DNA of 26,141 nucleotides from a virus: IMG/VR virus record IMGVR_UViG_3300047375_000061, positions 1 through 26,141 of that record; one strand, written 5' to 3'. Made by a program: the position numbers and the translations under genes. This document shows, one piece after another, positions 1,386 to 23,428 of the stretch; the stretch's first letter is position 1; each line of letters opens with the position of its first letter. The notes under the pieces are model-generated. The model was not told where the DNA came from, ran no database searches, and saw only the letters and a list, made by a program, of their open reading frames with translations.

Positions 1386-1455
1386 AATATTAGACGAGGT
1401 ATTTGCCTCTGTCTTTAAAGAGAAATGGGAGGATAGAGAATATAAATGGCTATAA
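1369..1455 (+). CDS. 28-aa possible small protein
   Basis: A short frame starts at ATG 1369 with a strong ribosome binding site (AGAAGGAG, 1355-1362) at good spacing, and ends at TAA 1453-1455, overlapping the next gene's start by 10 nt. The product is an acidic-basic helix ending in EYKWL. Given the strong RBS and the long spacing (about 12 nt) between GGGAGGA and the next ATG, this could be a real microprotein, or a leader whose translation feeds ribosomes to the ATPase gene. It is too short for homology evidence. Confidence 0.4.
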   Translation: MEEINKILDEVFASVFKEKWEDREYKWL

Positions 1456-2201
1456 ATTTAAAATCACTATCTAAGCCATCAGGTCAGCGACCAATAATCG
1501 CCACCTTATTTGGTGAAGGCGGAATGGGTAAAACTACACTAGCCGCTATGTTCCCAAAGCCAGTCTTTATCAGAACTGAAGATGGAACTGCATCACTTAT
1601 GGGTAACAAGGAAGTTAGTCTCTTCCCATTGGCAACATCAAGTCAAGATGTCTTGGATGCAATTGAGGCTCTAGCCACTGACAAGCATGAGTTTAAGACA
1701 TTGGTTATCGATAGCATTACGCAATTGGCAACAATGATCGAAAGCGAAATTGTAGCGGCTGATCCTAAAGCTAAATCTATAAACCAAGCTGGGGGTGGAT
1801 ATGGAGCAGGGTATGGTACTGCATCTGAAAAGCACCGCCAGATCAGAGAGTGGGCAGGATCTCTTGCTTATGAAACTGGAATGAATGTGGTCTTTATTGG
1901 ACACGCCGACACTGAGACGTTGGACTTGCCTGATCTAGATCCATACGCAAGGTACTGTGTGAGAATGCATAAGAAGAGCATTCCGCATTACACTGATAAT
2001 GTTGACCTAGTTGGATTAATCCGACTGAAGACATTTACTCGCGGAGATGGCGATAAGAAGCGCGCCATTTCTACTGGTGAACGTGAGATACTGTGCTTTC
2101 CACAGGCATCATCAGTCACCAAAAATCGGTTCAACATTACTGAACCACTGCCATTTACATTTGATGGCGGCAATCCATTTTCACAATTTGTAGCAGAGTA
2201 G
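1446..2201 (+). CDS. Sak4-like RecA-fold ATPase (phage recombinase)
   Basis: This encodes 251 residues. The Walker A motif is GEGGMGKTT (residues 23-31) and the Walker B motif is TLVIDS (85-90), in the order of RecA-like NTPases. The size, the single domain and a downstream neighbour of DUF669 type fit the Sak4 group of phage single-strand annealing and recombination ATPases. Sak4 proteins promote strand annealing and phage recombination and often act with the phage's own SSB-like protein. The central segment, rich in Gly and Tyr (QAGGGYGAGYG, about residues 115-125), could be a flexible DNA-contacting loop; that is a guess. A generic phage AAA ATPase is the alternative name. Confidence 0.82.
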   Translation: MAINLKSLSKPSGQRPIIATLFGEGGMGKTTLAAMFPKPVFIRTEDGTASLMGNKEVSLFPLATSSQDVLDAIEALATDKHEFKTLVIDSITQLATMIESEIVAADPKAKSINQAGGGYGAGYGTASEKHRQIREWAGSLAYETGMNVVFIGHADTETLDLPDLDPYARYCVRMHKKSIPHYTDNVDLVGLIRLKTFTRGDGDKKRAISTGEREILCFPQASSVTKNRFNITEPLPFTFDGGNPFSQFVAE

Positions 2202-2211
2202 GAGAACTCAC

Positions 2212-2673
2212 ATGGACTTAAACGGATTTAACGCATTGGAAATCGAGCCAACAATAACTAACGAACCAATCCCAGCAGATTGGTACAAGGCTGTAATTTC
2301 TAACACCGAGCAGAAGGCAACCAAAGCTGGAACTGGCTCATACCTAGAACTCACAATTGACGTGATCGAAGGATCATATCAGGGCAGAAAAATTTGGGAT
2401 CGACTAAACTTACAGAACCCAAACCAAACTGCGGTTGAGATTGCACAACGTAATCTATCGAGCATTTGTCGTGCGATTGGTGTGAACAACCCAAAGGATA
2501 GTGCTGAGTTATGTGACAAGCCACTGATGGTTAAAGTTGCAGTTAGAGCGGCTGATGGTCAGTATGATGCCACTAACGAAGTTAAGGGTTATGACGCGGC
2601 AGGTGGAGCTACGGCTACTGCATCACCTGTAGTTGCAACTGCGAGTGCATCTACACCACCTTGGAAGAAGTAA
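2212..2673 (+). CDS. DUF669-family protein, probable single-stranded DNA-binding partner
   Basis: This encodes 153 residues, with GGAG about 7 nt before the ATG. The core has the DUF669 pattern: an N-terminal ADWYKAVI strand, then GSYLELTIDVIEGSYQGRKIWDR-type strands, then a helix with TAVEIAQRNLSSICRAIGV. This family sits beside Sak4-type ATPases in many phages and is thought to act as an SSB-like protein. The C-terminal 25 residues are low-complexity Ala/Thr/Ser followed by PPWKK, a disordered tail with a short aromatic end. It lacks the acidic tip of bacterial SSB; the helicase encoded downstream carries such a tip instead. A hairpin follows the gene. Confidence 0.78.
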   Translation: MDLNGFNALEIEPTITNEPIPADWYKAVISNTEQKATKAGTGSYLELTIDVIEGSYQGRKIWDRLNLQNPNQTAVEIAQRNLSSICRAIGVNNPKDSAELCDKPLMVKVAVRAADGQYDATNEVKGYDAAGGATATASPVVATASASTPPWKK

Positions 2674-2686
2674 CGTCTACCTCTGG

Positions 2687-2707
2687 ATCGGCTCCTCGTG
2701 AGCCGAT
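2687..2707 (+). terminator. Intergenic stem-loop between SSB-like and exonuclease genes
   Basis: ATCGGCTC (2687-2694) pairs perfectly with GAGCCGAT (2700-2707) around a 5-nt loop, and G-U pairs could extend it. Only TTTA follows, so it is at best a weak intrinsic terminator. An attenuating or RNA-processing hairpin that sets expression of the downstream genes is equally possible. Confidence 0.5.
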
Positions 2708-2730
2708 TTACTAGATAGATGGAGAAGCAA

Positions 2731-3672
2731 ATGAACCTTGAACAATATATGACGCCAGAAACAGTTCGCCTCATTTACGAGAAATATCAACAGAAACGAA
2801 AGAATGAGCATCGACCTCACTTGGGTGGATCTCAAATTGGCAATGAATGTAATCGCGCACTTTGGTATCAGTTTAGGCACGCATGGACGCCAGACTTCTC
2901 TGGGAGAATACTTCGATTGTTTGAAACAGGTGATCGTGAAGAAGATCGTGTTGTATCTAACCTAAGAGATATCGGTGTAGAGATTTGGGAAGTAGACCCA
3001 GAGACTGGTAAGCAAGTTAGATTTACAGAATGTGGTGGTCACTTTGCATTGTCTCTGGATGGTGTGGGTCTTGGTTTTCCTGAGAGCAGTAAGCCACACA
3101 CACTTGAATTTAAAACAATGAACACCAGAAGTTTTAAAGATATCGAGAAGAAGGGATTGCAGAAAAGCAAGCCTATCTATTGGGCGCAATGCCAGATTGG
3201 TATGCACTTGGCTGAATTAGAGAACTGCTACTTCTTTGCAGTTTGTAAGGAGACTGACGCTATTTATGCAGAACGTCTAAAGCTAGATAAGTCTGAGGCC
3301 ATGCAACTTATCGAGAAGGCAAATAAAATTATATTTGCAGAGACGCCACCATCCAAATTAAGTGAGGATGCAAGTTTTTGGCAATGCAAGTTCTGTCCGT
3401 ATTGGGCGGTATGTCATGGATGCAAGATACCAGAAGTTAGTTGTAGGACTTGTAGCCATGTGACCCCAGAGAAAGATGGCACTTGGAGTTGCGCCAAAGG
3501 GAAGCCCACAGTTACCTGTGATGAACATCTATACATCCCACAAATCATGCCAAAAGATTTGGTGGTGCATGATGCTGGTGATGACTTTGTTGAATATGAA
3601 GATCAAGACACTGGCGAGATCATTAAGAACAAGGAGAACAGCCAAGCTATCTTTGATGGTAGGATGGTGTAA
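2731..3672 (+). CDS. Cas4/RecB-like PD-(D/E)XK exonuclease with predicted Fe-S cluster
   Basis: This encodes 313 residues from the ATG at 2731, which has GGAGAAG 6 nt upstream; an ATG at 2719 has none. The nuclease core shows GDREE near residue 67, LDG at Asp110, LEFKT at Glu126/Lys128, and YWAQCQIG with the Gln motif (150-157). Cys40 together with Cys219, Cys222 and Cys228 matches the split Cys pattern of the 4Fe-4S cluster in Cas4 and AddB-type nucleases. Further Cys at 231, 238, 241, 254 and 263 may bind zinc. It probably resects DNA ends to make ssDNA for the Sak4/DUF669 pair. Its last codons (IFDGRM) recur at 4195-4212, downstream of the next gene. Confidence 0.85.
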   Translation: MNLEQYMTPETVRLIYEKYQQKRKNEHRPHLGGSQIGNECNRALWYQFRHAWTPDFSGRILRLFETGDREEDRVVSNLRDIGVEIWEVDPETGKQVRFTECGGHFALSLDGVGLGFPESSKPHTLEFKTMNTRSFKDIEKKGLQKSKPIYWAQCQIGMHLAELENCYFFAVCKETDAIYAERLKLDKSEAMQLIEKANKIIFAETPPSKLSEDASFWQCKFCPYWAVCHGCKIPEVSCRTCSHVTPEKDGTWSCAKGKPTVTCDEHLYIPQIMPKDLVVHDAGDDFVEYEDQDTGEIIKNKENSQAIFDGRMV

Positions 3673-4184
3673 TGGTTTTAAATGTAAGATTGACTAGATC
3701 AGAAATGTCAGAAGTAAAACAAGCGGCGGCTTTACGTTGGCAATTGGCAAGGGCAAGCGGTGTTGTAAATCAACGCAAAGATATTAGATCAGATGCTGAT
3801 ATTGATCTTCTAGGTTTAAAGGCTGAAATGGCAGTCGCAAAAGCCTTACAGCTTCCATATAGGGCATCTGACCTTGGCATAGATAGTGGTGCTGATATGT
3901 GGTCTGAAGACGTAAGTATTGACGTGAAGGCAACGTATCATAAATCAGGCAAGCTATTATTTAAATCCTTAGATTCGTTTGTCGCTGAATACGCAATATT
4001 AGTTACCATATCTGATGATGAAGATGTGATGCGTATTGTTGGAGGTATGGGTAGAGATAGATTTAAATTAGAAGCAGTAGAGACAGACTTGGGTAGGGGT
4101 ATATGTTGGGTTGCACCTCAAGACATATTAACACCCATAGAAGGCGTTTGGCTTGCATTAACTCAGTGGAGGTTGTGCAGATGA
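3672..4184 (+). CDS. PD-(D/E)XK-like endonuclease, probable inserted (homing-type) gene
   Basis: This encodes 170 residues, with AGGA 7 nt before the ATG, whose A is shared with the upstream stop. A helix carrying GLKAE (Glu52) is followed by Asp75, then IDVKAT with Asp84 and Lys86: the E, D, (D/E)xK order of a restriction-like nuclease fold. The Asp75 to Asp84 spacing is right for the family. No specific subfamily is recognised; a resolvase-like or restriction-like role is possible. Directly after its stop lies a short copy of the end of the preceding exonuclease gene. That suggests this nuclease gene arrived as a unit and split an ancestral exonuclease-GNAT junction. Catalysis is inferred from motif order only. 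Confidence 0.6.
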   Translation: MVLNVRLTRSEMSEVKQAAALRWQLARASGVVNQRKDIRSDADIDLLGLKAEMAVAKALQLPYRASDLGIDSGADMWSEDVSIDVKATYHKSGKLLFKSLDSFVAEYAILVTISDDEDVMRIVGGMGRDRFKLEAVETDLGRGICWVAPQDILTPIEGVWLALTQWRLCR

Positions 4185-4189
4185 CCTTT

Positions 4190-4218
4190 AAGTTATCTTT
4201 GATGGCAGAATGAAATGA
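4190..4218 (+). pseudogene. Remnant of the 3' end of the Cas4-like exonuclease gene
   Basis: Bases 4190-4212 match 3644-3666 at 20 of 23 positions. In the corresponding frame they read VIFDGRMK-stop, against AIFDGRMV-stop at the end of the exonuclease. Two of the differences are synonymous (GGT/GGC and AGG/AGA), as expected for a once-coding copy. The remnant's TGA (4216-4218) overlaps the next gene's ATG at 4215 in the ATGA form typical of this genome. It cannot be expressed as part of the exonuclease, since TAA lies in frame just upstream. Confidence 0.6.
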
Positions 4219-4763
4219 TAGAAGACACGATAGTGAGAGAGGCTGTATTAGAAGATATAAAATATGTTGTCAGCCTCAGTAAAAAAGAAAGTTTGAGTTT
4301 AGGTTTTATTCCAAAGATGGCGTATGAATCTGCGATCACAGGAATCAAAACTGGCAAGAGATGGTCACCTGTTTGTAATGACAAACTATTTGTGTGTACT
4401 GTTAACGATGACCTTGTTGGTTTTTGCCTAGCTAGTTTTGGCAAAAGAAATGCAATCTACCGCAAGGGAAAGATAGCTCAGATTTGCCTCCAAGAAGATG
4501 CCAGAAAATTTGAGAGGGGAAAACTGCTTTTAAACGTAGTTATCAATTGGGGTAAGTCTATTGGGACTTTATCTTTTGATGCAGGTTGTGCTGACGATTT
4601 GGAAAGTAATTTCTTTTGGCAAGCTATGGGTTGGGAGATTGCAGGATCTCGTAAGGGTATCGGACACAAGAACACTTGGGTTCAAACAAGCAAACGAAAA
4701 ATCAATATATATAACTACGATCCCAATTGGCTAAGTGGATTAATAATAGGAGACGTTAAATGA
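4215..4763 (+). CDS. GNAT-family N-acetyltransferase
   Basis: This encodes 182 residues. The N-terminus (MIEDTIVREAVLEDIKYVVS) is the usual GNAT opening strand and helix. The acetyl-CoA site is suggested by QICLQEDARKFERGKLLLN (about residues 89-107), followed by NFFWQAMGWEIAG, the family's motif B helix (F/W near 'GW'). The substrate cannot be told; phage GNATs can modify host or phage proteins or small molecules. No good ribosome binding site precedes the ATG. In the inferred ancestral arrangement it would have been coupled by ATGA to the exonuclease. Its stop overlaps the helicase start by 4 nt. Confidence 0.75.
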   Translation: MIEDTIVREAVLEDIKYVVSLSKKESLSLGFIPKMAYESAITGIKTGKRWSPVCNDKLFVCTVNDDLVGFCLASFGKRNAIYRKGKIAQICLQEDARKFERGKLLLNVVINWGKSIGTLSFDAGCADDLESNFFWQAMGWEIAGSRKGIGHKNTWVQTSKRKINIYNYDPNWLSGLIIGDVK

Positions 4764-6418
4764 CATTTACCCTTAGAGACTACCAAAAAGAAGCAATAGA
4801 TGGGCTGTACAGCTACTGGGCAAGTAAGTCAGGGGATAATCCACTAATCGTTGCGCCTACAGGCTCTGGGAAGACTGCGATCATCGCACAACTGATTTCA
4901 GACGCCATGAGCTACCACGGCACGAGAGTTATGGTTGTAACGCACGTTAGGGAGCTTCTGGAGCAAGGTGCTTCAGGATTGGTCAAACTGTACCCACAGG
5001 CTGATTTTTGCTTCTACAGCGCGTCTGTGGGTGAGAAGCGACTAGACAAACCTATTATATTTGCAGGGATACAAAGTGTATGGGAGAGAGCCTACCAGAT
5101 CGTCCCTGCAATTGATTTGATATTAATCGATGAGGCTCACATGCTACCCAAGAATGAAGGCACTCGATACAACAAATTCATAGCTGACATGAAGAGTTGT
5201 AATCCAGATGTTAAAGTTGTTGGACTGACTGCCACGCCATACCGATTAGACAGTGGATACTTGCACAAAGGCGAGGGAGCTATCTTTGATGGGATTGCAC
5301 ATGACATATCTGTTGAGATGCTCATGGAGCAAGGTTACCTATCTCCTGTCATATCCAAGGGCGGAATTAAACAGATCGACCTGACAAATGTCAAGAAACG
5401 TGGTGGTGAATTTATCGAGAGCCAATTGGCTACTGCCGCATCAGATCCAGAGTTAGTTGCGTCTACAGTCGCAGAGATAGTTGACTTAGGATCAGATAGG
5501 AAAAGTTGGTTGGTGTTTAGCTCTGGTGTGAGCCACGCACAAATGTTGGCAGATGAATTTGAATTTCACAATATATCAGTTGGAGTTGTCACTGGATCAG
5601 ATGGAAAGAAAACCAGAGATCAGACAATTTCTGATTTTAAATCTGGCAAACTAAAATGCCTGATCAATGTGAATGTGTTGACCACTGGCTTTGATCATCC
5701 TTCTGTGGATCTCGTCGCGTTGGTTAGAGCTACAGCATCAACTGGATTGTATGTGCAAATGGTTGGACGTGGCACTAGAATTGCAGATGGCAAGGAAAAC
5801 TGCCTGATATTAGATTATGGTCAAAATGTTGAGCGTCACGGATTTATCGATAAGGTTAAGCCAAAAGATAAAATGAGTGGTGGCGATGGAGAAGCTCCAG
5901 TTAAGACATGCGAGAAATGCCAGACGATGGTTCACGCCGCCGCTCAAGTTTGTCCTGAGTGTGGATTTCAGTTTCCACCGCCTATGCTTAATCACAGTTC
6001 AAGTTCATACCGAGGTGCTATGTTATCGTCTCAAGTAGAATCCGAGTGGGTTGATGTCGATAGTGTGTACTATTCAAGGCATAAGAAAGATGGAAAGCCA
6101 GACAGTGTGAAGGTGACTTACCATTGTGGAATGATGTCAAACTCTGAGTGGCTGTGTCCAGATCATGGTGGATACGCCGCCAGTAGATATAGATCCAGAA
6201 AGCCTTTGCTAAACTCAACGGCAGATACAACAGATGAAGCTCTGGACGAATCAAGTTCTTGGATAACGCCTAGTCGCATAAAAGTTAAACCATCATCTCA
6301 CAATCCAAAATACAAAGAAATTGTAGAATTTGATTATACACAAGTGGAGAAGAAACATGAGACGCAAACGCAAAACTCGGACTACTACGATTGGACTGGT
6401 GAAGATATCCCCTTCTGA
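4760..6418 (+). CDS. SF2 DEAH-box helicase with zinc ribbon and SSB-tip-like C-terminus
   Basis: This encodes 552 residues. The motifs appear in order: LRDYQKEAI (residues 5-13), Walker A APTGSGKT (32-39), DEAH (124-127), LTATP (156-160), LTTGFDHP (307-314) and QMVGRGTR (333-340). Together these give a complete two-domain superfamily 2 core. A zinc ribbon follows, with Cys384/387 and Cys398/401, then about 140 low-complexity residues. The protein ends DWTGEDIPF, close to the E. coli SSB end DDDIPF that binds replication and repair partners. It probably remodels or unwinds phage DNA or recombination intermediates, and may recruit host SSB-binding partners. It overlaps the VRR-NUC gene by 62 nt. 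Confidence 0.92.
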   Translation: MTFTLRDYQKEAIDGLYSYWASKSGDNPLIVAPTGSGKTAIIAQLISDAMSYHGTRVMVVTHVRELLEQGASGLVKLYPQADFCFYSASVGEKRLDKPIIFAGIQSVWERAYQIVPAIDLILIDEAHMLPKNEGTRYNKFIADMKSCNPDVKVVGLTATPYRLDSGYLHKGEGAIFDGIAHDISVEMLMEQGYLSPVISKGGIKQIDLTNVKKRGGEFIESQLATAASDPELVASTVAEIVDLGSDRKSWLVFSSGVSHAQMLADEFEFHNISVGVVTGSDGKKTRDQTISDFKSGKLKCLINVNVLTTGFDHPSVDLVALVRATASTGLYVQMVGRGTRIADGKENCLILDYGQNVERHGFIDKVKPKDKMSGGDGEAPVKTCEKCQTMVHAAAQVCPECGFQFPPPMLNHSSSSYRGAMLSSQVESEWVDVDSVYYSRHKKDGKPDSVKVTYHCGMMSNSEWLCPDHGGYAASRYRSRKPLLNSTADTTDEALDESSSWITPSRIKVKPSSHNPKYKEIVEFDYTQVEKKHETQTQNSDYYDWTGEDIPF

Positions 6419-11421: not shown

Positions 11422-12684
11422 CTACGAGTTCATTATTTTATATGCGCTTGCCAAACCACCCATACCAGCTATTGCTTGTCCGTAAAGAGATGGGTTTGCA
11501 CTCATCTGAGATCCTGAAGTATAACTACGATTAATTGTATTGTATGGCGTTCCAGACAATGCACCTAATGTGAAGTTAAGCATTTCTTGTGGATACATTT
11601 TTTGGTCAAGATAATCAGCGTATGCCAAGTCAAGTGCCTGTTGATCAAGTTGCCTACGAGCTTCACCTGTTGTAATTAACCCAGCCGCCGCTTGAGTTTG
11701 TAAGTCTTGTACTAGCGGAGCCATGTTTTGGTATGCGTTCATTTGTTGAATGCGTGACGCTTCATTTGTTTCATATGCGTTTCTAGCGGCGTCATCTGCA
11801 CCAAAACGTGCTTGACGATCTATATCGTATTGACTACGCAACGCGGCGTCTGCACCAAATCTTGCTGATCTATCTTGCTCAAACTGACCACGCATAACAT
11901 CTTCCGCGCCAAATCTTGCGGCTCTGTCTTGCTCAAATCCAGATCTCATTGTGTTTTCTGCGTTAAAGCGTGACGCCCTATCAGTGTCATATCGACCTGC
12001 GGCGAATCCAAGACCTTCTCGTGCGGCTTGCGCTCGTAAATCTCCTGCGGCTTGTGCGCCTTCTCCAGCAGTTGTAGCTTCCATAATGCCTAAACGTGAA
12101 CCAAAGCCTCCACCACCTGTAGATGCTCTGGCTCTGGCTTCATTTTGTGCGCGTATTGTCTGTTCTTCTATTTCACGAACAGCAGGGTTCATGGCATCTT
12201 GATATATGTCCATGTAAGGCTGTGCAGACTCAAGACTAAATGGATCTCCTAGTAATTCTTCTCGTGTCGCCCCTTGGTAGTCGCCCAAAAGATCTTCACG
12301 ACTTGCACCTGAATAGCTTCCTAAAAGTTCCTCACGGCTTGCACCTTTAAATGGGCTACCCAGTAATTCCTCTTGAGACATGGCGTCATAACCACGACCT
12401 AAAGTATCTGCTACTCCAGATGCCTTATTTACGAAAGGCATGTAGCTTTCAGCACCTTTTGTAAGTATGTCAGCACCCATACGCTCTTCTTCAGTGCGTC
12501 GATCACCACCATATGTTGCAGTTCTTGCGCCTTCGTATGTTGGGTAAGGTGAGTTGGCTAATTCTGCGGCGCGCTCAAATGCTGTTCGACCTGCGGCGGC
12601 GACCCATGATGGAATCTCTGTACCAGCTACTGTCTCACTTGAGGATGGTAACTCTGTGTATGATGGTGTGCAAAAACTGCCCAT
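11422..12684 (-). CDS. Repeat-containing putative internal virion protein
   Basis: This encodes 420 residues with two internal repeat arrays. Residues 101-149 hold four 12-13-residue units of the form GASREELLGSYS. Residues 234-305 hold four 18-residue units of the form QDRAARFGAEDVMRGQFE, predicted to make one long charged helix. Between them is a Gly-rich hinge (STGGGGFGSRLG). The C-terminus is helical, then Ser/Tyr/Gly-rich. There is no enzyme motif. GGAGG inside the end of the upstream GNAT gene is its RBS. Long repeat helices suit an internal core or ejection protein; this is an inference. Confidence 0.55.
   Translation of the reverse strand: MGSFCTPSYTELPSSSETVAGTEIPSWVAAAGRTAFERAAELANSPYPTYEGARTATYGGDRRTEEERMGADILTKGAESYMPFVNKASGVADTLGRGYDAMSQEELLGSPFKGASREELLGSYSGASREDLLGDYQGATREELLGDPFSLESAQPYMDIYQDAMNPAVREIEEQTIRAQNEARARASTGGGGFGSRLGIMEATTAGEGAQAAGDLRAQAAREGLGFAAGRYDTDRASRFNAENTMRSGFEQDRAARFGAEDVMRGQFEQDRSARFGADAALRSQYDIDRQARFGADDAARNAYETNEASRIQQMNAYQNMAPLVQDLQTQAAAGLITTGEARRQLDQQALDLAYADYLDQKMYPQEMLNFTLGALSGTPYNTINRSYTSGSQMSANPSLYGQAIAGMGGLASAYKIMNS
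11770..11985 (-). repeat. Four 54-nt in-frame repeats coding an 18-aa helical unit
   Basis: The repeats encode residues 234-251, 252-269, 270-287 and 288-305 of the protein above. Conserved positions are DR, ARF, A and R, with a partial fifth unit after. They are diverged at base level and stay in frame, so they reflect protein structure rather than a DNA element. Confidence 0.7.
12238..12384 (-). repeat. Four in-frame repeats coding a 12-13-aa unit (S-R-E-E-L-L-G)
   Basis: The units are at residues 101-113, 114-125, 126-137 and 138-149, with SxEELLGxx conserved. Three are nearly identical, which suggests recent duplication or selection for repeated binding motifs. Confidence 0.7.
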
Positions 12685-21770: not shown

Positions 21771-22991
21771 TTACGCTACTTTTTCTAATGCAGAATTAAT
21801 ACCCAAAACATCTTTAAGCCTATCTCTAATACCAAGACCATCCAGATTTTGTGCAAATGATGGCGACCACCACAAATTACTTAAATGTAAAAAATCTATA
21901 GAGGCTTTTCCACTGTCTAATATTACTTCTGGGGCGCGCCCAAAAGTCCCAGCAGGATAAGCATGTTCTATCATGTCACAGAAAGCCTTATCATACTTTC
22001 CAGTTTCCATACATCGCTCACCACGTTCTCTTGCGTAGTCCCAAAAAGGAGTGTTGTATTTTGAACCAGCAAAATAGTGTAGCATAATTATACGCTCTAC
22101 GTTTCTTATTAGACCTACATATTCAATGTTAGCCTGTTCTGTAGACATGATACCTTGGATGCAGTTCATAGCGTTTTCTAAAACGCTATTTGCCATACCA
22201 AAAGACATAGCTTCTAAAGGCTCTAAGAAGAAAGACGAGTTGCCATTGCTTGCTAATCGGTCAGTAAAATTTCGGTTCTTTGAGTAGTTGTTAAAGCCAA
22301 AAGAGTTAGTTTCTTTACTGGGCGTTAAGCCAAAGTCACTAAATATTGCCTTTATGTCTTCTTTAACTTCTTCAAGCGTGTTGATGTCGCTGTTATATAG
22401 ATACCCAACAGAACATCTATTTTGTAAAGGTATCCCAAACACCCAACCATACGGCCTAGCAATAGTAAGTGTGTGTGAAAACTTTGGGGCATCCCAGTAG
22501 CATTGATTTACATGGACAGCGTTTACAGGAATGTAAGCAGACTGTGAGTGTTTGCTGTAATCTTTAGGGCGACCAGAACAATCAATAATATAGTCAGCAT
22601 CAATATCATCGGGAGTTATGTTATGCTCAAACAAATCAACATGATCTTTTAGCTTACCATAGATGTAGTCTTGCATTTTGTTTGCGTTAAAGTGAATAGC
22701 AGTTGATGGTGTAGGAAAATCGTGTAGAAATTCTTCTTTTGTTTTAGACCAACCGCGCTTGAATATGCCTGTTTTTACATAGGCATCTACAAGATTAAAA
22801 TCTTTCCCACTAAACCCCAAAGTCTTGTTTAAAAGGTGAGGTAAGATGAGAGTTGTCCCCTCACCTACTGCTTGCGGTTTTATAGTGGGGTCATAGTGCC
22901 ACTCAACCTTTGCGTCTGGGAAGTTAAGTTTCATTTGTAGCGCAGACATACACCCTACAGTTCCACGCCCTATGACTGCGTATTTCTTCAT
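21771..22991 (-). CDS. FAD-dependent tryptophan-halogenase-like protein
   Basis: This encodes 406 residues from ATG 22991, which overlaps the previous stop as ATGA. It has the Rossmann motif GRGTVG (residues 8-13), the conserved GEGTT (43-47), and the halogenase lysine region VKTGIFKRGW, where Lys73 fits the catalytic position. It also has GWVFGIP (182-188), matching the family's WxWxIP with a Phe. The second half includes FLEPLEAMSFG, expected for the flavin-binding loop. Such enzymes make HOCl or HOBr-type species from FADH2 for chlorination or bromination. Marine phage halogenases are known, but the substrate here is unknown. A host-supplied flavin reductase would be needed. Confidence 0.85.
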   Translation of the reverse strand: MKKYAVIGRGTVGCMSALQMKLNFPDAKVEWHYDPTIKPQAVGEGTTLILPHLLNKTLGFSGKDFNLVDAYVKTGIFKRGWSKTKEEFLHDFPTPSTAIHFNANKMQDYIYGKLKDHVDLFEHNITPDDIDADYIIDCSGRPKDYSKHSQSAYIPVNAVHVNQCYWDAPKFSHTLTIARPYGWVFGIPLQNRCSVGYLYNSDINTLEEVKEDIKAIFSDFGLTPSKETNSFGFNNYSKNRNFTDRLASNGNSSFFLEPLEAMSFGMANSVLENAMNCIQGIMSTEQANIEYVGLIRNVERIIMLHYFAGSKYNTPFWDYARERGERCMETGKYDKAFCDMIEHAYPAGTFGRAPEVILDSGKASIDFLHLSNLWWSPSFAQNLDGLGIRDRLKDVLGINSALEKVA

Positions 22992-23428
22992 GCCATATCC
23001 AAAATAGAAGGTATTGAAGGCCACGTAACAGAAGTTGGAAATGTATCTTGATCTGTTATATCTAACAAAGCTGTTCTATACGCTGTGACTTCATTTTGTT
23101 GGGTAGAAGTTAATCCATCCCAACGCATAGGGTTTGAAACAACAGGATCAACAAGACTAGCCAATAGTCCATTCCGTTCACGCCTTATTTCGGCGGCATT
23201 AGAGTTATCTATCTCCTCTTGTGTTGGAGGCTCTGGAGCGACATAAGGCGCAATGTCATTTGCCTCTTGCATCTGAGCTAATAAAACTGTGTTGTCTATA
23301 GTATTATCTGCATCATTTACGTCTAAGGTGTAGGGCGTCCAACCTTCATATTTTTCAAGGTCTAGCCAACAGTCTATGCGATTACCTGTGTCGTCTATAT
23401 AAATTGCGTCTTTGTAAGTATAAGCCAT
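22988..23428 (-). CDS. Tail-fibre assembly chaperone-like protein
   Basis: This encodes 146 residues from ATG 23428 (TAATG with the tail-fibre stop, and GAGGT upstream). The middle has PPTQEEIDNSNAAEIRRERN, and the end has GLLASLVDPVV, QQNEVTAYRTALLDITDQ and a W-P-x-I-P tail: the RNxLL and YRxALxDIT pattern of phage fibre-assembly chaperones. It follows the tail-fibre genes, as such chaperones do. It would help fold or trimerise the fibres. Confidence 0.75.
   Translation of the reverse strand: MAYTYKDAIYIDDTGNRIDCWLDLEKYEGWTPYTLDVNDADNTIDNTVLLAQMQEANDIAPYVAPEPPTQEEIDNSNAAEIRRERNGLLASLVDPVVSNPMRWDGLTSTQQNEVTAYRTALLDITDQDTFPTSVTWPSIPSILDMA

Follow-up and report, generated by a model that had tools for sequence, protein, structure and literature searches.

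A scar of two gene ends in a marine phage recombination operon points to the fusion of alternative cassette alleles

Introduction

The free-standing homing genes of phage T4 lie between conserved genes and often overlap the stop codon of the gene upstream, and SegE adjoins uvsW, which it also targets (PMC2988022). Free-standing (intronless) homing endonucleases of the T-even phages, such as SegE (inh/uvsW) and MobE (nrdA/nrdB), resemble the locus described here, where a nuclease-like gene that we call nucA is found between conserved DNA-metabolism genes. In both cases the start codon is placed over the upstream stop, the gene can lie beside a helicase gene, it is present in some relatives and absent from others, and it has spread into alleles that lacked it. 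The likeness is strong in layout, however, the known T4 enzymes are GIY-YIG or HNH proteins, while nucA encodes a putative nuclease of PD-(D/E)XK type. The nucA locus also differs in showing no signal of nuclease-specific co-conversion, and in that its interrupted allele carries a two-gene scar with an illegitimate joint.

A second comparison is phage mosaicism at gene boundaries, produced through relaxed homologous or illegitimate recombination by systems of the lambda Red and Sak4 types. There, as here, modules are swapped at short conserved boundary strings, and the phage studied here encodes a Sak4-like protein, a single-strand DNA-binding protein (SSB) and an exonuclease. The annealing activity of Sak4 from phage HK620 is reported to be stimulated by SSB, and phage annealing proteins are reported to favor recombination between diverged sequences (PMC5928155, PMC5499656, PMC3945230). 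The present locus is different from the general pattern in that both parental gene orders, and remnants of both at one joint, have been kept.

Two further nucleases occupy the same position in relatives. The slot of roseophages CRP-901 and CRP-902, which are in culture, contains an HNH endonuclease gene (CRP901_gp19, CRP902_gp19), likewise positioned between a small gene and the helicase gene, with overlapping start and stop codons. The HNH family is unrelated to nucA, and the two are alternatives at the slot. In both of these genomes (L128, L129) the Cas4-like exonuclease is annotated as "oxidoreductase". The other occupant is PDDEXK_14 (PF24579), a putative phage PDDEXK endonuclease, which resembles the nucA product in being a PD-(D/E)XK-type protein but has no detectable sequence relation to it and occurs in a different setting in pakpunaviruses.

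Here, we analyze a stretch of 26,141 nucleotides from a marine phage related to CRP-901/902 (positions 1 to 26,141 of IMG/VR virus record IMGVR_UViG_3300047375_000061), referred to as the window.

Results

nucA is part of a recombination operon

The nucA gene lies in an operon with genes for Sak4, SSB, an exonuclease, a helicase and a VRR nuclease (Table 1). Querying viral contigs with the exonuclease gene (exo) returned 75 contigs, on which exo, nucA, GNAT, helicase and VRR nuclease were mapped. Elsewhere in the window, on the minus strand, a 417-aa protein encoded among the structural genes (21771-23024) resembles by eye a flavin-dependent tryptophan halogenase, and the protein encoded at 11422-12684 contains short internal repeats of the form GASREELLGD.

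Table 1. Coordinates of the genes and gene remnants discussed in the text, in window positions.
Feature	Position	Strand	Remarks
Sak4-like single-strand annealing protein gene	1446..2201	+	phrog_124, E 2e-47
SSB gene	2212..2673	+	phrog_6015, E 5e-46
exo, Cas4-like exonuclease gene	2719..3672	+	phrog_1990 Cas4-domain exonuclease, E 3e-95; tail ...IFDGRMV-stop
Upstream copy of the 23-nt direct repeat, at the 3' end of exo	3644..3666	+	contains an AGG-rich stretch
nucA, 170-aa nuclease-like gene	3672..4184	+	PD-(D/E)XK-type motif
Helicase gene-start remnant	4181..4195	+	ATG ACC TTT AAG TTA (MTFKL); ATG overlaps nucA stop (ATGA)
10-codon mini-ORF created by the fusion	4181..4213	+	MTFKLSLMAE-stop; from nucA stop to one base before GNAT ATG
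exo 3'-end remnant from a GNAT-bearing allele	4194..4218	+	TATCTTTGATGGCAGAATGAAATGA; 25/25 identical to L005 exo end
GNAT acetyltransferase gene (other cassette)	4215..4763	+	phrog_1249 acetyltransferase, 9e-7; Pfam Acetyltransf_1, 0.002
DNA helicase gene	4760..6418	+	intact start ATGACATTTACCCTTAGAGAC; phrog_16, E 7e-101; ResIII/Helicase_C

The scar behind nucA holds the ends of two genes

An initial annotation of this DNA had reported that the end of exo recurs behind nucA. The repeat is as described, with 3644-3666 and 4190-4212 agreeing at 20 of 23 bases and the second copy reading VIFDGRMK-stop in frame, with an ATGA overlap onto GNAT. In 60 dinucleotide-preserving shuffles of 2400-5400 the top 23-mer pair scored 16-19 and none reached 20 (0/60), and the exo tail compared with random 53-nt stretches at 31 offsets gave a maximum of 16. 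These shuffles and the relatives rule out a repeat by chance. The copy is closer to the exo end of nuclease-less relatives than to the window's own exo end: the match to the uninterrupted allele of contig L005 extends over all of 4194-4218 up to the stop, after which L005 runs on into GNAT. The AGG-rich stretch within the upstream copy is likely the ribosome-binding site of the next gene. A 15-nt core of the exo tail, AGCTATCTTTGATGG, has a third exact copy at 5278-5292, inside the helicase coding sequence (GAIFDG), which we take as coincidence.

The other half of the scar, at 4181-4195, was absent from the earlier account. Contigs in which nucA directly abuts the helicase gene (L010, L017, L022, L025, L053 and others) show the same overlap of nucA stop and helicase ATG, and the helicases of this group start MTF(T/E/K)L, with other helicases starting MTFKLRDYQ. 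Because of this, we read the segment as a helicase gene start that keeps its frame and its expected position behind nucA and breaks off after about five codons. The chance of an MTFKL match is about 1 in 60,000, a figure from hand arithmetic and not a computed result. No helicase beginning with ATGACCTTTAAG was found in the viral contigs, where only ATGACNTTTAAA forms turned up, and the exact helicase donor is therefore unsampled. The nucA-helicase alleles of clade B start ATGACCTTTACC, which covers just the first 10 nt of the remnant.

The two halves meet at AAGyTA (AAG(T/C)TA, 4190-4195), a possible microhomology joint, in which the T at 4193 is a mismatch to the exo parent. The mini-ORF that spans the joint may preserve translational coupling. 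The full scar string is identical in 12 contigs and the window, so a single origin appears most likely.

These results change how the insertion is understood. The idea that a nuclease gene had been inserted together with a replacement exo end was right about the end: RMV-stop is present, and among the relatives this tail is seen only ahead of nucA or the PDDEXK_14 gene (nucB). The simple insertion, leaving an exo remnant alone, is ruled out by the helicase start codons in the scar. Because of those codons, nucA would have come from an exo-nucA-helicase allele that was fused to an exo-GNAT-helicase allele.

Relatives carry both parental gene orders

The uninterrupted exo-GNAT allele that the initial annotation predicted exists in six contigs without nucA (L002, L004, L005, L006, L011 and L012), where exo ends in the old C-terminus, ...SQAIFDGRMK-stop, and its TGA overlaps the GNAT ATG as ATGA. 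A pattern scan for the junction of the exo end and GNAT found 18 contigs, 12 with nucA and these six, and thus close relatives hold interrupted (12 contigs and the window) and uninterrupted alleles at one site. The order exo-GNAT-helicase is complete in five of the six, while the L005 piece has exo-GNAT and stops before the helicase. The other parental order, nucA-helicase with the ATGA overlap, is found in L010 and L025, and also in L017 and L022 with a small gene, c3, ahead. Following the VRR nuclease gene in L010 (4440-4793) and L025 (3281-3634), whose slots have no GNAT, there is a distant GNAT-like frame (26% identity).

It could be argued that the uninterrupted alleles are secondary, with recombination between the exo-end repeats deleting nucA precisely and restoring exo-GNAT. 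The repeats do flank nucA at 20/23, and L005 is exactly the expected product (ATCTTT...RMK-stop). However, five of the six uninterrupted alleles have ATTTTT, which is not obtainable by deletion from any known interrupted allele and rules out this origin for those five. The remnant itself also needs an earlier exo-GNAT adjacency, and uninterrupted ATTTTT alleles with deep exo/GNAT diversity are already largely seen. We consider deletion very improbable as the source of these alleles.

Small cassettes are exchanged between exo and the helicase gene

Among related phages the interval between exo and the helicase gene is a site of small-cassette exchange, with the helicase as its right boundary. 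Across 66 listed intervals there are 13 gene arrangements, counted after nucA and PDDEXK_14, initially merged by single-linkage clustering, had been separated. The modules are c3 (about 60 aa), c1 (about 89 aa), one nuclease and GNAT. The slot nuclease is nucA, a PDDEXK_14 protein (PF24579, 1.8e-58) or an HNH protein (HNH_3; phrog_99, 7e-44); two together occur in 0 of 58 complete intervals, and about a quarter of complete intervals have none. For nucA, all 39 loci share a single insertion site, and no second site was found among them.

The final codons of exo and of c3 vary with the identity of the next gene, with RMV-stop before nucA or nucB, RMK-stop before GNAT and often RMQ or RMQT-stop before c1. 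The exo and c3 ends share the joint string GGGAGGATG, and the helicase, nucB and some nucA genes share the start string ATGACGTTT. Cassette boundaries thus fall at a likely ribosome-binding stretch in the last codons of the upstream gene and at the start box of the gene downstream.

A second scar lies in L094 (2940-3015) and at the same place in L095. Here the exo reading frame continues into codons from the C-terminal end of the HNH gene (RVLSHDV), and AGAGTTCTGTCCCATGACGTT, which joins the HNH end to the helicase start, stands twice ahead of nucA. Because HNH end codons and the duplicated AGAGTTCTGTCCCATGACGTT precede nucA, an HNH gene probably once filled this slot, and nucA was probably joined at the helicase start box. 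This scar is independent of the one in the window.

The nucA product is assigned to the PD-(D/E)XK type by its motif

The motif reads E52 ... GIDSGAD (D71, D75) ... IDVKA (D84-x-K86), and these residues are invariant across nine sequences; homologues are 71-99% identical to the nucA product of the window. Family matches are weak (phrog_18407, 1e-7; DUF5843, 5e-5, below its cut-off). Searches of solved structures (by sequence), NCBIfam and the PADLOC defence library gave no matches, and no relatives were found in sequenced phages and prokaryote genomes. An AlphaFold2 model had a pLDDT of 41. With weak family matches, no solved relative and a poor model, the putative PD-(D/E)XK assignment rests on the motif. 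A profile comparison with PDDEXK_14 detected no relation, using a very shallow profile. The dN/dS of nucA is about 0.05-0.2, like that of core genes, and the gene is under purifying selection.

About 150 Pseudomonas phages have PDDEXK_14, which in the pakpunaviruses that were inspected is one unremarkable gene amid small hypotheticals. In Pseudomonas phage ITTPL (L131, 3495-3917) and other pakpunaviruses this protein has about 140 aa, and several records name it "anaerobic NTP reductase large subunit", which looks like a misannotation that has propagated. A possible interruption of a reductase gene by PDDEXK_14 in Pseudomonas phages was considered and dropped, as the reductase name is the label of the small protein itself. 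A distant PDDEXK_14-like gene (33% identity) is located at another site, upstream of exo, in L038 (197-637). It has EMR for EVK, so that the (D/E)XK lysine is missing, and is possibly inactive.

nucA has entered several haplotypes

For eight interrupted alleles from the clade of the window, the mean difference is 0.40% in nucA, compared with 2.25% in exo, 1.45% in GNAT and 2.15% in the helicase start. Contig L044, which has nucA, matches the exo haplotype of the nucA-less L002 at 13 sites up to -58, and then shows zero differences from the window between -58 and +817 (875 bp). Similarly, L008, with nucA, resembles L012, without it, from GNAT nt 20 onward, including the helicase haplotype. The gene is also in a second clade, where exo has diverged by about 20% and nucA by about 2%. 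Together, the low diversity of nucA, the sharing within these two pairs and its presence in both clades indicate recent entry into several existing haplotypes.

Such spread is expected from ordinary recombination as well, and general recombination is intense at the exo-helicase locus. The first 540 bp of the window's helicase gene (4760-5300) are about 95% identical to clade B (L016-L023, L075), with 15-30% divergence further along. This tract is common to clade A and to all clade-B alleles compared, whatever the slot gene, and reads as an old recombination tract.

A homing endonuclease would supply a driver for the spread. On this reading nucA is a free-standing PD-(D/E)XK homing enzyme. It would cut nucA-less phages close to where exo meets the helicase gene, and repair of the break would copy it in; the scar would then be a repair joint with homology on its exo side and an illegitimate join on its other side. 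In favor of this, the other occupants of the slot are PDDEXK_14 and an HNH protein of homing-endonuclease type, and no two of the three share a complete interval. Within the interrupted alleles nucA has diverged less than any other segment, its entry into uninterrupted haplotypes has its nearest breakpoints 58 bp away on the left and about 20 bp into GNAT on the right, and homing genes of T4 are similarly placed (PMC2988022). However, when all cross-clade pairs were compared, pairs sharing the nuclease had no more flank similarity than pairs not sharing it, and thus gave no signal of nuclease-specific co-conversion. The single insertion site, a dN/dS that does not indicate decay, the behavior of GNAT, a non-nuclease, as a cassette at the same site, and the ordinary setting of PDDEXK_14 in pakpunaviruses also count against homing. 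The suggestion of an unrecognised homing nuclease is weakened by the missing co-conversion signal, the single site and the lack of a confident structure. As a driver of the spread, we regard homing as a tentative possibility.

Another reading is that nucA, PDDEXK_14 and the HNH protein are interchangeable, useful accessory nucleases, acting in recombination or in attack on competing phages or host DNA, and swapped by selection without being selfish. Purifying selection on nucA and its place in the operon agree with this, however, the intervals with no slot nuclease mean that any such role would be dispensable, and the defence library gave no match. We judge this reading rather unlikely.

Discussion

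The sequences show the gene orders of both parents, a remnant of each, the same scar in every contig with the joint, and spread across haplotypes. The history that in our view probably underlies the window allele is the fusion of two alternative alleles at the cassette site, with spread afterwards. One illegitimate crossover, probably at microhomology, would have joined an allele of the order exo-nucA-helicase to one of the order exo-GNAT-helicase, so that the opening helicase codons from one parent run into the closing exo codons from the other. This would have stacked the two cassettes and left the short scar at 4181-4218 behind. Ordinary homologous recombination, using exo on the left side and either GNAT or helicase on the right, would subsequently have carried the joined unit to several exo/GNAT haplotypes and to the second clade. 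We speculate that the phage's own Sak4/SSB/exonuclease system did the joining, and its Sak4-like protein is a candidate agent for short-homology recombination. A role of the nuclease in its own spread is at most putative.

Homing is compatible with the allele-fusion history and adds a driver to it, and the facts are explained about as well if the recombination system of the phage shuffled the genes passively. Strict homing by nucA, judged from the sequences, is plausible while falling well short of probable. The same caution applies, slightly more strongly, to the wider proposal that nucA, perhaps with the PDDEXK_14 occupant, is a free-standing PD-(D/E)XK homing endonuclease that competes with an HNH enzyme of the homing kind for a single slot where the helicase gene starts, and that spreads itself into uninterrupted phages.

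Environmental sequences preserve the scar, the fused product and the gene orders of both parents, so that one step of modular phage evolution is legible down to single bases: two alternative cassettes became stacked at gene boundaries, after which the product spread. In a widespread group of marine phages with cultured members (CRP-901/902), three unrelated nuclease families occur as alternatives at one slot, and the locus offers a compact set of testable candidates for distinguishing homing from passive recombination.
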